Shown: positions 14,600 to 19,330 of the stretch, piece by piece | How positions within the stretch are numbered: the first letter of the stretch is position 1 | How the letters are laid out: the number at the start of each line of letters is the position of its first letter | Source: Tepidanaerobacter syntrophicus | Lineage (GTDB): Bacteria > Bacillota > Thermosediminibacteria > Thermosediminibacterales > Tepidanaerobacteraceae | DNA length: 64,000 nt | Assembly (NCBI RefSeq): GCF_001485475.2 | Contig: NZ_DF977003.1 | Location: forward strand, 62,001-126,000 | Reading direction: 5' to 3' | Position numbers and translations under genes: made by a program | Notes under the pieces: generated by a model | What the model was told of the DNA's origin: nothing | The model's input: only the letters and a program-made list of their open reading frames with translations | Database searches by the model: none

Positions 14600-15574
14600 T
14601 TATTTTATAGATTCTGCAATTTTTATAAGTTCATCTTTGGCAATTTCGCCTCTGCCTACCAGCATATAAATTACGCCATTATATTCCCAGTCAAGATTAC
14701 TATCATCATACAGGACGGCGTCTACACCGTTTATTTTTAATTCTTCAATCTTAACCGCATCTGTCACATATCCTGCATCTTCCTCGGCAACTCTCTGCTG
14801 CATGTAGATAAATTTCCCCGTTTCTTCATTTGCAAAATACAGTCCTACGACTTTGCTATTTTCTACGACGCCATTTTCGTCTTTAAAAAATTCTGCCTCT
14901 GTAAATTTATAACCTTCAGGTAAATAACTTGGAAGCTTGATATCAAAACAGGTATAATTATTTAATTGGTTGGGGTCTTTTATTATCAGACACTCGTCGG
15001 CCCTAGCCTTCTCGTGCTCGCTTTTAGTTACTATATCTCCATCTGAATCAATGTAAGCGATTCTTTCGCCATCAACGGTATATATTTCGTCGGCATGTTC
15101 AGTTGAAAGCACTTCTAATGGATTGCCATCCTTATCAAAAATCTTGCCTTTTAATTTATCGGGGACAGGCACTGATTTTATGTCAGAAGGTTCACTTTCT
15201 AGAATTGTTATATGTCCAAGGGATATAGTCCTTACTATCTTGTCAACTACTCCTTGGGCAAAAGATGTTTGCATCAAGGAAAATCCCAAAACACATACAA
15301 GCGCAAATGACGCAACTTTAGTGACAATACTTTTAGTTTTATTTGACTTTTTCAAAGTATCTTCTCTCCCTTTTTGTTCATTAATATTTCTCAAAACTCT
15401 TTCAAAGACTTTTTGTTTATCGCTGTCCTTGCTAAAATCCTTATCTGCCATTGTTTTACCCAATTCCAAAAGCTTAATGTATTCTTCAGATTGCTTACTG
15501 TCTAATCGCTTTATGCCCTTTAAATAAGCATCTATGTCCGTAGAAAACATGTCTTCAAGTCTCTTTTTCTCCAA
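14600..15574 (-). CDS. Anti-sigma factor-like membrane protein (DUF4367 type)
   Basis: 324 residues. An N-terminal cytoplasmic helical region of about 85 residues precedes one membrane helix at about 90-112 (TKVASFALVCVLGFSLMQTSFA). An extracytoplasmic part follows, with a C-terminal segment (LPSYLPEGYKF, then YDDSNLDWEYNGVIYMLVG) typical of DUF4367. It starts with TTG 2 bp after the stop of the sigma-factor gene, so the two are translationally coupled. Predicted to hold the ECF sigma factor at the membrane until an envelope signal arrives. Confidence 0.75.
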   Translation of the reverse strand: MEKKRLEDMFSTDIDAYLKGIKRLDSKQSEEYIKLLELGKTMADKDFSKDSDKQKVFERVLRNINEQKGREDTLKKSNKTKSIVTKVASFALVCVLGFSLMQTSFAQGVVDKIVRTISLGHITILESEPSDIKSVPVPDKLKGKIFDKDGNPLEVLSTEHADEIYTVDGERIAYIDSDGDIVTKSEHEKARADECLIIKDPNQLNNYTCFDIKLPSYLPEGYKFTEAEFFKDENGVVENSKVVGLYFANEETGKFIYMQQRVAEEDAGYVTDAVKIEELKINGVDAVLYDDSNLDWEYNGVIYMLVGRGEIAKDELIKIAESIK

Positions 15575-15576
15575 GA

Positions 15577-16137
15577 TTATCCCATCCTTTCTAATTCTTT
15601 TTTCAATTTCTTCATAGTGCGAAAAAGTATCACCCCGACATTGTTTTCTGTAAGACCTAACACCTTTGAAATTTCTACATTTTTTAAACCTGCACCGAAT
15701 TTAAGTGCTACTATGCTTCTTTCTCTTTCATCTAAAATACTTAGGGCCTTTAAAAGTTCATCATTGGTTTCAGCTATTTCCACAATATCTTCAGGAGTTT
15801 TTTTCTTTGATATTAAATTCTTGATTGAATCAATAGGTAAGAATTTACGGTTTTGCAGGTTCCTGAAATAATCATTTACTGTATTTCTGGCTATAGCAAA
15901 TAGCCATACTTCGAAAGGAGATTTAGTTTCATCATAGGTATTTATCTTAATCATTACTTTTTCAAATATTTGGCTGGTTAAATCTTCTGCCGTATAGTAT
16001 TGATTTACTCGATAGTATACGAAGTTAAACACCTTTTTGTAATAAGTTTCAAAAATATAGGTAAATTCTTTTTCCATGTCTAATAATTCCGGAATTTCTC
16101 TTTTAGATTGAGCATCGATTAAAGCGAGCTTCGGCAA
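15577..16137 (-). CDS. ECF-type sigma-70 family factor
   Basis: 186 residues. Region 2 spans about 22-95 (FETYYKKVFNFVYYRVNQYYTAEDLTSQIFEKV, read in two parts, then FEVWLFAIARNTVNDYFR). Region 4 spans about 125-180 (LDERERSIVALKFGAGL, then ISKVLGLTENNVGVILFRTM). The TTG start at 16137 is supported by GGAGGAGGAG 8 bases upstream; an internal ATG at residue 21 is the alternative. It forms an operon with the membrane anti-sigma-like gene. The divergent 315-bp gap contains a 16-bp palindrome near its start. Confidence 0.88.
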   Translation of the reverse strand: MPKLALIDAQSKREIPELLDMEKEFTYIFETYYKKVFNFVYYRVNQYYTAEDLTSQIFEKVMIKINTYDETKSPFEVWLFAIARNTVNDYFRNLQNRKFLPIDSIKNLISKKKTPEDIVEIAETNDELLKALSILDERERSIVALKFGAGLKNVEISKVLGLTENNVGVILFRTMKKLKKELERMG

Positions 16138-16452: not shown

Positions 16453-16989
16453 ATGAGTGATACAGATCTGGGACAGCGGTTTGCCGCCGGTGGAGAGGAT
16501 GAGCTGGAAGAAGTAATCAATCTCTATGGTGAAAAACTTCTTCGCTATGCAACTGCCATCCTGTGTGATTACCATGAAGCGGAAAACGTGGTGCAGGATG
16601 TTTTTCTTTCAGCTTATCAAAACCGTAAAGCTTTTGACGGCAAAAATCTTTCCGCATGGTTGTATAAAATTACATATAATCGCAGTCTAAACCAACTAAA
16701 AAAGCGTAGAATTTTATGTTTTAGTGAAATCCGTGCCCAAGCAGTTTCGCCTATAGATGATACAAGTCTAAGTGACGAGACACTTTGTGCCCTACGGCGA
16801 CTTAAACCAAAAGAACGGGCCCTGCTTTATGGGCGGATAATGGAAGAATTGAGCTATGAAGAACTTTCCCAACTGTTAGGGTGTTCTCCTACTGCTTTGC
16901 GCAAGCGATACGAGCGGGCAAAAAATAAGCTGGCGGCCTACCTGACCGCCGGGCAATATGGAAAGGAGACAAAACATGAGTACATTTGA
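16453..16989 (+). CDS. ECF-type sigma-70 family factor (second system)
   Basis: 178 residues. Region 2 is at about 15-85 (LYGEKLLRYATAILCDYHEAENVVQDVF in outline, then LSAWLYKITYNRSLNQLKKR). Region 4 is at about 110-160 (LKPKERALLYGRIMEELSYEE, then LLGCSPTALRKRYERAKNKL). AAAGGAGA precedes the ATG. Its end overlaps the next gene by 14 bases, so sigma and anti-sigma are coupled. Base composition is visibly richer in G and C than most of the window, suggesting separate ancestry from the neighbouring ECF pair. Confidence 0.87.
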   Translation: MSDTDLGQRFAAGGEDELEEVINLYGEKLLRYATAILCDYHEAENVVQDVFLSAYQNRKAFDGKNLSAWLYKITYNRSLNQLKKRRILCFSEIRAQAVSPIDDTSLSDETLCALRRLKPKERALLYGRIMEELSYEELSQLLGCSPTALRKRYERAKNKLAAYLTAGQYGKETKHEYI

Positions 16990-18454
16990 TAAGAACGAAC
17001 AAGATATACATGATGCACTTTCGCAAATCACTGTTGATGAAAGCAAGCTTGCCGAACAGGTTAAAAGGCGATTGAATGAAGAAGCTTCTAACACCATACA
17101 GCGCCGAATGCGCCAGCCTATGACTGCAGCTATAGCGGTAGTTATGTCAGTGATGCTGTTTGTCACGGTGGCAGTTGCAGCTCAGGGTGGTTTTGATTGG
17201 TTTATCAAAAGATTCAACCCATCCTTTGGCGAGATTGCAGAACCTGTTGAGGCATATTGTGAAGATCAGGGAATCCGTATGGAAGTCATTGGCGCACAAA
17301 AGTATGACAATATGGCGGTTGTTTATCTGTCGCTTCAAGATATAAGCGGACAAAACCGACTGACTGAGCAAACCGATTTCCAGGACGGGTTTACCGTGAA
17401 AATGAATACGCAGGCGCAAGAGGAAGCAAAGGGCCAAACAGACGAAATTGTCGCCAGCTTCGGCTATGGGCAAAAAATGCTCTACTTTGACGAGGAAACC
17501 AATACCATATATTATGAATTCACTATTACAGCCGATGCGGATTCACCGCTGTCCGATCCGTTGGAATTAGGCAGCTTTCTTATATATTTTGATAAAAGGT
17601 CATATGAGGAGCCGATTTCTATATCCCTGTCGGACATTAAGGAGGCTGAAACTGTATCCATACGCAGAGGCCAGATTTGGGGCGGCTCAGACTTGCCGGA
17701 CGACCTCGTTTGGGGCAGGGGCAGCTCAGACTTACCGGACGACCTTGACGAACTGACAACGGTCCTTGCTCCCGGCAATTATGCTCCCATGCCCCACGGG
17801 GAAGCCGACCAATGGATTTCAAACATTGGTATTATCGATGGAAAACTGCATGTTCAGACAGGCAAGCTTCTTCATAAAGAGTTCGGCAGCACAGACCCCA
17901 ATCTAAATCTTAAAACCCCAGACGGTTACTTCATTAACCCGGACTATGTATTGGATCTTTACGGCGATAAGGACTGCCGCCTGCTAGACTTGGAAGAAAG
18001 CGACTACGGGGATGCGGCATATAGATACGAAGAAGCTATCTTTTCTATAGACACCGAGGAACTTGATGGCTATAACCTTTGCTATGCCGGCTCGGTTTAT
18101 TCCGGTGTAAAAGGCCGGTGGAAGGTAGCTGTAAATCTGAGTGACACAAGCCGCAAGATGCGCATCATTACAAATGATATTCCTGTTGAAGGCCATCTCT
18201 TTGAGCATATGACCCTTAGTCCTTTGGGACTTCAAGTCATCGGTTCCTATACTGGGGAAGAGTGTATGGCAAGCGGAATGTCTATGGCAGTTGAGACTGC
18301 CGATGGCGTTATTCCACTACATGGCGGCGGGGGAAGTCTTAATTCCCAAAAAAAGACCTTTAATTTGCACTGGAACACAGAAGCTCCGCTTGACGTTGCC
18401 ACAGTTACTGCTGTCATTATAAACGACACCCGTATTCCGGTTCAATCAAACTAA
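16976..18454 (+). CDS. Anti-sigma factor-like membrane protein (DUF4179 type)
   Basis: About 492 residues. A short acidic cytoplasmic N-terminus precedes one membrane helix at about 45-65 (MTAAIAVVMSVMLFVTVAVA), and the rest is extracytoplasmic. The region following the helix (GFDWFIKRFNPSFGEIAEPV) is typical of DUF4179 proteins paired with ECF sigma factors. Start 16976 is chosen because AAAGGAGA lies 6 bases upstream; the in-frame ATG at 16958 precedes that RBS. A 39-bp tandem repeat inside the gene gives two copies of SDLPDDL 13 residues apart. Predicted to inhibit the sigma factor encoded just before it. Confidence 0.78.
   Translation: MSTFDKNEQDIHDALSQITVDESKLAEQVKRRLNEEASNTIQRRMRQPMTAAIAVVMSVMLFVTVAVAAQGGFDWFIKRFNPSFGEIAEPVEAYCEDQGIRMEVIGAQKYDNMAVVYLSLQDISGQNRLTEQTDFQDGFTVKMNTQAQEEAKGQTDEIVASFGYGQKMLYFDEETNTIYYEFTITADADSPLSDPLELGSFLIYFDKRSYEEPISISLSDIKEAETVSIRRGQIWGGSDLPDDLVWGRGSSDLPDDLDELTTVLAPGNYAPMPHGEADQWISNIGIIDGKLHVQTGKLLHKEFGSTDPNLNLKTPDGYFINPDYVLDLYGDKDCRLLDLEESDYGDAAYRYEEAIFSIDTEELDGYNLCYAGSVYSGVKGRWKVAVNLSDTSRKMRIITNDIPVEGHLFEHMTLSPLGLQVIGSYTGEECMASGMSMAVETADGVIPLHGGGGSLNSQKKTFNLHWNTEAPLDVATVTAVIINDTRIPVQSN
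17673..17747 (+). repeat. 39-bp imperfect tandem repeat in the DUF4179 gene
   Basis: The stretch containing CTCAGACTTGCCGGACGACC at 17686 recurs with one change at 17725, a period of 39 bp (13 codons). It encodes the repeated SDLPDDL with a Trp-Gly-rich linker. It keeps the frame. Confidence 0.75.
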
Positions 18455-18605
18455 AATGTACGGGGAAAATTGTAGTTTGCTTGACGGTATAAGAAATGAA
18501 TAATATTATATAACTACATTGACTATAAAGAACGCTGGCTTGCGACAGACGGATTTGTGCGAAAGTTAATGGTAAATCCGGGCATTATTAAAGGGAGGCT
18601 GTGTT

Positions 18606-19061
18606 ATGAAACTGGCAGAGGCGTTAATATTAAGATCAGATTTGCAAAAGAGAATAGAACAACTTAAAAATAGGTTAAGAAATAATGTAATGGTTCAAGA
18701 AGGCGAAAAGCCAAGTGAAGAACCGGAAGTTCTATTAGAGGAATTGGATGATTGCCTATTAGAATTGACAGATATTATTAAACGAATAAATAAGACAAAC
18801 AATGCAACAAAGTTTAACAAAGAATGGACTTTAGCGGACGCATTAGCGGAAAGAGATAAACTGTGGGAAAAAAGATTAGTTTTATCACATATAACTGAGG
18901 CAGCCAGTGTAAAGCAAGATAGATATTCCAGAACTGAAATTAAATATATTAGTGTGGTAAATGTAAAAGAACTGCAAAAACAAATAGATAAATTGTCAAA
19001 AGAGTATAGAGAGCTTGATACTAAAATTCAAGGATTGAATTGGACTATAGACTTAATCTAA
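18606..19061 (+). CDS. DIP1984-family protein (septicolysin-like)
   Basis: 151 residues, almost all helical and probably coiled coil. The N-terminus MKLAEALILRSDLQKRIEQL, the early EGEKPSEEPEVLLEELD motif and the ending ELDTKIQGLNWTIDL match the DIP1984/septicolysin family, whose molecular function is not established as far as I know. GGGAGGC precedes the ATG. No membrane helix or secretion signal is present. It is followed within about 15-60 bp by a candidate structured RNA with a tRNA-like T arm and a terminator, probably on the same transcript. Confidence 0.82.
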   Translation: MKLAEALILRSDLQKRIEQLKNRLRNNVMVQEGEKPSEEPEVLLEELDDCLLELTDIIKRINKTNNATKFNKEWTLADALAERDKLWEKRLVLSHITEAASVKQDRYSRTEIKYISVVNVKELQKQIDKLSKEYRELDTKIQGLNWTIDLI

Positions 19062-19074
19062 ACAAAGTCGGTAG

Positions 19075-19330
19075 CTGTAAATTATAAAGGTGAGTACAAA
19101 CCTTATAACTAGGTCAAAGTTATACTGCTGGTGGCTTTGGGGCAAAGCCGGTGGTTCGATTCCACATATAACAACTTAAGCCCATAAATGTTACACCAGT
19201 ACAAATAGATTGTTATTGTTACTACCATGTACTAATTTATAATTTAAAGCGAGGGTGGGTAAGGGGAATCTAGAGCATCAGATGTTCTATTAGAGCTGTA
19301 AACGAATTGTTTGTTCGTTTATGGCTTTTT
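19075..19330 (+). ncRNA. Candidate structured RNA with a tRNA-like T arm
   Basis: The gap after the DIP1984 gene contains several hairpins and ends in a strong terminator. At 19119-19172 there is a tRNA-like unit. GTTATA (19119-19124) pairs with TATAAC (19167-19172) like an acceptor stem. GGCTTTG/CAAAGCC (19133-19149) forms an arm. GTGG-TTCGATT-CCAC (19151-19165) is a perfect tRNA T arm with the canonical 7-base loop. There is no D arm, anticodon loop or CCA. The GTTATA strand can instead pair with TATAAC at 19104-19109. It may be a noncoding RNA (a Y-RNA-like molecule is one idea) or a 3' UTR element. Ends are approximate. Confidence 0.4.
19294..19330 (+). terminator. Rho-independent terminator after the candidate RNA
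   Basis: A 13-bp stem with two G-T pairs (AGCTGTAAACGAA with TTCGTTTATGGCT) has a 7-base loop, followed by TTTT and further T-rich sequence. It ends the transcript coming from the DIP1984 gene and RNA. Confidence 0.8.

Follow-up and report, generated by a model that had tools for sequence, protein, structure and literature searches.

Comparative sequence analysis of DUF6847 (DIP1984 family) loci identifies a conserved pseudoknotted RNA in at least six bacterial phyla

Results

The DUF6847 gene of Tepidanaerobacter syntrophicus

The window, i.e. the whole stretch of DNA that was analysed, comprises 64,000 nt of Tepidanaerobacter syntrophicus NZ_DF977003.1; coordinates without a locus name are window positions. 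The locus contains a DUF6847 gene, a structured RNA and an intrinsic terminator:

18481..18509, + strand: candidate sigma-70-like promoter (TTGACG-17-TATTAT) upstream of the DUF6847 gene, weak and from a consensus scan only
18606..19061, + strand: DUF6847 / DIP1984 family gene, coding for a predicted four-helix protein of 151 aa
19066..19267, + strand: structured RNA of about 200 nt as modelled (R1, see below), directly 3' of the stop codon; R1 score 161 bits
19292..19328, + strand: intrinsic terminator that ends the gene-RNA unit, as the first-pass annotation of this DNA had proposed

The same annotation had placed the gene in the DIP1984 family, and this was borne out by profile searches: the product matched PF20935 (DUF6847) with an E value of 1.6e-58 and 197 bits (cut-off 27) and NF038048 with 205 bits (cut-off 70). 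No function is on record for the family. The AlphaFold model of the window protein (mean pLDDT 93.5) has four helices, and a Foldseek search with this model matched nothing except 3KDQ (E 5e-12, TM 0.93), the solved structure of a Corynebacterium diphtheriae relative, to which no function has been assigned. Twelve residues, mostly polar, were invariant among 42 diverse homologues (E5, L7, R10, D12, R23, E38, N62, N65, R135, D138, Q142 and N145). Given the order of the helices in the model, one end of the bundle would be expected to bring together the invariant residues close to the beginning of helix 1 and to the ends of helices 2 and 4. DUF6847 proteins are near-neutral and not basic (median net charge -1, pI 6.1).

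The promoter consensus scan performed near chance level, with 6 sites found and 4.1 expected. Upstream of the DUF6847 gene, the regions 14600-16137 (-) and 16453-18454 (+) carry two sigma-factor-like genes, each followed by a possible anti-sigma factor gene; Pfam confirmed the 16453 sigma factor only.

Extent and parts of the RNA

DUF6847 loci were taken from Bacillota, Actinomycetota, Bacteroidota, Chloroflexota, Cyanobacteriota, Pseudomonadota and a few other groups, and a homologous RNA was found 3' of the DUF6847 genes in all the phyla named. The analysis used a plain MAFFT alignment of 50 sequences (A2) and a covariance model of the RNA (R1), from which the loop pseudoknot was left out. 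The parts of the window RNA are:

19070..19074, + strand: GGTAG, 5' flank of the closing helix; near-invariant columns in A2
19074..19098, + strand: 5' strand of closing helix P1; a G-A internal loop at 19089-19090 is conserved
19101..19103, + strand: strand S1 (CCT) of an H-type pseudoknot; partner AGG at 19111-19113
19104..19110, + strand: hairpin strand S2 (TATAACT); partner AGTTATA at 19117-19123
19133..19149, + strand: hairpin GGCTTT-GGGGC-AAAGCC, whose loop GGGC (19140-19143) pairs with GCCC 19180-19183 as a pseudoknot
19151..19165, + strand: T-arm-like hairpin GTGG-TTCGATT-CCAC, an optional module
19180..19183, + strand: GCCC, 3' side of the loop pseudoknot, covarying with the hairpin loop
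19189..19227, + strand: conserved, largely unpaired segment TGTTACA..GTACAA..TTGTTACTACCA, with AC and ACC invariant in A2
19228..19250, + strand: 3' strand of P1, with covariation
19251..19267, + strand: conserved G-rich tail GAGGGTGGGTAAGGGGA, 3' end of the modelled RNA; GAGGGNGGGNNNGGGG near-invariant

Nearly all loci showed a common order of elements 3' of the DUF6847 stop codon: GGTAG, a helix strand ending near GCGAGTAC, the pseudoknot region, the GGGGC-loop hairpin, often the T arm, GCCCAG, the GTNACA...GTNACNACC segment, the second helix strand and GAGGGTGGGNANGGGGA. The median distance from the stop codon to GGTA was 11 nt. The structured element noticed in the first-pass annotation is therefore part of a real RNA, but one larger than described there, reaching from GGTAG at 19070 to the end of the G-rich tail at 19267. 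Within the 19189-19227 segment, no covarying helix was found.

GGTAG and the G-rich tail are absent together in the versions from Prevotellaceae, Acinetobacter and Saprospiraceae; the loci that lack both and keep P1 are L054, L058, L064, L067, L081, L095 and L097. To judge from the sequences, this joint loss suggests that the two flanks act together, and for the same reason they may interact at the base of P1, which they flank, perhaps via a G-quadruplex. A long-range GGTAG/CTACC pair was rejected, being without covariation and geometrically awkward across P1.

Covariation of the fold

RNAalifold, run on A2 without hints, returned one helix of 13 pairs in P1, with compensatory changes in 13/13. 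In our complete structure 33 of the 36 pairs had changes on both sides, and its covariation score was 0.428; slid partners scored 0.08-0.14 and shuffles 0.20. The P1 closing helices were 92-95% paired across the alignment. An unguided column-pair test ranked the P1 pairs at the top, followed by the pairs between hairpin loop and GCCC and by those of the T stem.

For the H-type pseudoknot, changes on both sides were seen in 3/3 pairs of S1, and a per-sequence search showed its strands to vary together (CCC/GGG, TCTC/GAGA, GGGC/GCCC, CGC/GCG). That search gave at least 10 pairs in 51% of the sequences and in 10% of the shuffles; its score counts any pseudoknot in the region, and we take it as no more than supporting evidence. 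The stems of the S2 hairpin covary in homologues (CCAACT/AGTTGG, CCTACT/AGTAGG, CCCGGCT/AGCCGGG, GGACCGG/CCGGTCC). The loop pseudoknot was paired in 89-91% of cells, with changes on both sides in 3/4 pairs, also on the R1 alignment (90%); loop and partner change together among GGGC/GCCC, GAGC/GCTC, GGAC/GTCC, GGGA/TCCC, GGGT/ACCC, GAGT/ACTC and GAGA/TCTC.

The minimum-energy fold of the window RNA includes P1, the S2 hairpin and the T arm. The folding energy on its own is ordinary (z = +0.76); the case for RNA structure rests on comparison. By this comparative analysis the fold is conserved and covarying across at least six bacterial phyla.

The T arm and the tRNA-like reading

The first-pass annotation had drawn attention to the T arm GTGG-TTCGATT-CCAC, and this hairpin is real and well beyond what chance would give: a canonical T loop (UUCRANYC) closing a stem of 4 bp or more was found downstream of 34 of 99 non-redundant DUF6847 loci and in 16/4950 shuffled sequences (0.3%), and the T stem covaries. 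The T arm occurs in Bacillota, Streptomyces and others and is missing from many homologues. Hairpins with GNRA loops (GCAA, GAGA) replace it in the Curtobacterium/Frondihabitans clade, and other homologues have nothing at this place. T loops and GNRA loops are known tertiary-docking motifs. Since this applies to both, we would read the T arm as an interchangeable docking hairpin and not as tRNA mimicry.

The "strong arm" of the first-pass annotation corresponds to the hairpin at 19133-19149. The acceptor-like GTTATA/TATAAC pair of the annotation exists in the window sequence but is not conserved in homologues: by eye it was seen only in the window sequence and close relatives, while homologues pair GTTATA upstream, in S2. 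The second, upstream partner of GTTATA that the annotation had also recorded proved to be the correct one (19104-19110 with 19117-19123). The reading as an acceptor stem was rejected, as it is not conserved and GTTATA belongs to the S2 hairpin. A D arm and an anticodon arm are absent, and ARAGORN found no tRNA and no tmRNA. With Rfam 15 no family matched the window at gathering thresholds; at permissive E-values, eight homologous loci gave three weak matches, outside the element and far below threshold.

Linkage of the RNA to the DUF6847 gene

The RNA and the DUF6847 gene are linked. The conservation and covariation of the RNA beside DIP1984 homologues, a check that the first-pass annotation had asked for, were both found, and the RNA was tied to the gene. 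R1 located the RNA, on the right strand and in the right place, at 44 of the 47 DUF6847 loci held out from model building; it missed L123 and also L058 and L067, in both of which the elements can be recognised by inspection. Full-length RNA matches occurred in 13 of 199 Bacillota genomes, and these were the 13 with strong DUF6847 matches. In the 398-genome Bacillota sample the RNA was present in 24/24 genomes with strong DUF6847 matches; in G220, one of these, a contig end interrupts the gene. Copy number agreed as well, two genomes with two DUF6847 genes carrying two RNAs. The three genomes with good RNA matches among 149 Actinomycetota were all DUF6847 carriers, and the whole-genome scans gave zero full-length RNA copies in genomes without DUF6847.

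Three other Bacillota genomes of the 199 had short weak R1 matches, all in coding sequence. A short mini-element based on weak matches (L137-L140) was rejected: L137, L138 and L139 are coding sequence. L140:1501-1568 represents a leftover 3' piece of the RNA; an intact unit lies about 13 kb away in the same genome (G028). L026 was rejected as a case of RNA with a truncated gene, since a contig end cuts the gene.

Exceptions to the linkage were found at single loci. At L123 an actinobacterial DUF6847 gene lies in a longer open frame and no RNA was detectable. At L019:2920-3111 a second RNA copy (21.9 bits) lies about 780 nt after the first, without a DUF6847 gene of its own; it sits behind an ORF that resembles, by eye, an AbiEi-type regulator. 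At L096:4001-4678, on the Mycobacterium avium plasmid pS2b, the DUF6847 frame is broken and the RNA is intact at 107 bits.

Distribution and neighbourhood

The gene-RNA unit is spread on plasmids and chromosomes, with agreeing copy numbers and no conserved third partner among the neighbours checked. DUF6847 is sporadic, occurring in 25/398 Bacillota genomes, and is present on 371 plasmid records, mainly of Acinetobacter. In the Acinetobacter plasmids a single pdif site follows the RNA by about 80 bases, with gene and RNA both to the same side of it. The neighbours of the unit are unrelated ordinary genes: no conserved neighbouring gene was found in the 15 loci listed, for which ten neighbour proteins were scanned. 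A phage origin was rejected, no relatives having been found in viral contigs (single-sequence query, five phage records only).

The gene of Acinetobacter plasmids has been called septicolysin and treated as a virulence factor (PMC5559437). The Acinetobacter copies analysed here (L095, L097, L106) were found by similarity to the window protein, and their NCBI name is DIP1984 family. No cytolysin domain was found in the window homologue, which matched only PF20935 and NF038048 above cut-offs. Since profile and fold evidence give no support to it, the septicolysin virulence label of the plasmid copies appears to be a misannotation.

Discussion

On the strength of the conserved fold, the strict linkage and the stand-alone mobility, we consider it rather probable that the DUF6847 gene and the pseudoknotted RNA of about 200 nt constitute a single mobile cassette of two parts that function jointly, likely as a ribonucleoprotein. 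Gene and RNA would probably be transcribed together, up to the terminator. The RNA would fold into a compact body consisting of P1, the H-type pseudoknot, the GGGC-loop hairpin paired with GCCC, and an optional docking hairpin with a T loop or a GNRA loop, the T arm thus acting as a tertiary-docking module. Once folded, the RNA would cooperate with DUF6847, a ribonucleoprotein being the most likely form of this, and the cassette may have an accessory role (stress, stability or defence-like). The exceptions L123 (gene without RNA), L019 (RNA without its own gene) and L096 (broken frame) count against the cassette, and the near-neutral charge of DUF6847, not typical of a general RNA binder, counts against the ribonucleoprotein. 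We suggest, more tentatively, that the cassette could be an undescribed RNA-protein machine, spread horizontally over at least six phyla, with a double-pseudoknot core, possibly interacting flanks and a dedicated four-helix protein.

Linkage alone would also fit a cis-acting 3'-UTR element, in which the RNA would affect nothing but the mRNA that carries it, through stability, translation or autoregulation by protein or ligand. This main rival agrees with an RNA that always lies on the same strand, ahead of the terminator and a median of 11 nt past the stop codon, and that is essentially never separated from the gene. With about 200 conserved nt, two covarying pseudoknots and a docking hairpin that can be exchanged, the RNA would be unusually elaborate for such an element, and the extra copy without gene at L019 and the intact copy beside a broken frame at L096 also speak against it; we regard it as rather unlikely, and to be taken seriously. 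An addiction or defence pair, with the RNA restraining a toxic DUF6847 in the functional manner of type III toxin-antitoxin systems, would explain a sporadic, plasmid-borne, stand-alone unit of protein and RNA that lies beside pdif sites in Acinetobacter plasmids. We think it improbable: the RNA is single and downstream instead of forming upstream tandem repeats, the four-helix protein has no toxin-like fold match, and the PADLOC defence library gave one weak coiled-coil-like match to DUF6847 and no convincing family.

The first-pass annotation had proposed a tRNA mimic or a Y-RNA-like RNA, and about a third of the loci do have a canonical T loop and stem. This proposal did not hold up and now seems very improbable. 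The RNA lacks a conserved acceptor, a D arm and an anticodon arm, its T arm is dispensable and in one clade gives way to a GNRA hairpin, Rfam and ARAGORN were negative, and the core of the RNA consists of a long helix and two pseudoknots. That the element is a degenerate tRNA, or hairpins brought together by chance, would agree with the ordinary folding energy (z +0.76), but conservation and covariation across phyla already refute this reading, and it has next to no chance of being correct.

With this RNA there is now a specific molecular partner to test for DUF6847, which has a solved structure without function. The RNA itself adds a structured family that Rfam 15 does not contain and that is present in many phyla, and the septicolysin label of the Acinetobacter plasmid copies is put in question. 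The family may have been overlooked because 14 well-known control genomes contain no DUF6847 protein. In the literature searched, outside subscription journals and preprints, DIP1984 was mentioned in a single paper without any RNA, and DUF6847 and 3KDQ were absent; a prior description in subscription journals or preprints is possible.

In both sequence and fold the window gene clearly belongs to the DUF6847 family (PF20935, NF038048, 3KDQ), to which the sources searched assign no structured RNA partner. Among RNAs of other kinds, tmRNA shares the T loop and the pseudoknots, whereas the present RNA has no acceptor or alanine identity and no tag reading frame, and ARAGORN was negative. The bacterial Y RNA YrlA with Ro60/Rsr is likewise linked to a protein and has a T-loop hairpin resembling that of tRNA; here there is no Ro60, no conserved acceptor or D arm, an optional T arm and two pseudoknots. 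No Ro60 (TROVE) was found among the ten neighbour proteins scanned, DUF6847 itself is not Ro60, and no Y RNA family in Rfam matched. The type III toxin-antitoxin systems ToxIN, CptIN and TenpIN also combine a protein with a pseudoknotted RNA on mobile elements, but their RNAs are upstream repeats, whereas the present one is downstream and single-copy, and DUF6847 is all-helical, without a ToxN-type fold. OLE/OapA, GOLLD, ROOL and raiA resemble the present RNA as large conserved RNAs of unknown biochemical role, and differ in size, architecture and protein, with no match at Rfam thresholds. OLE RNA adjoins the gene of its protein partner OapA, a further likeness to the arrangement described here. 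That a structured RNA can have a protein of its own is already known in general; what appears new is the RNA family and its pairing with DUF6847.
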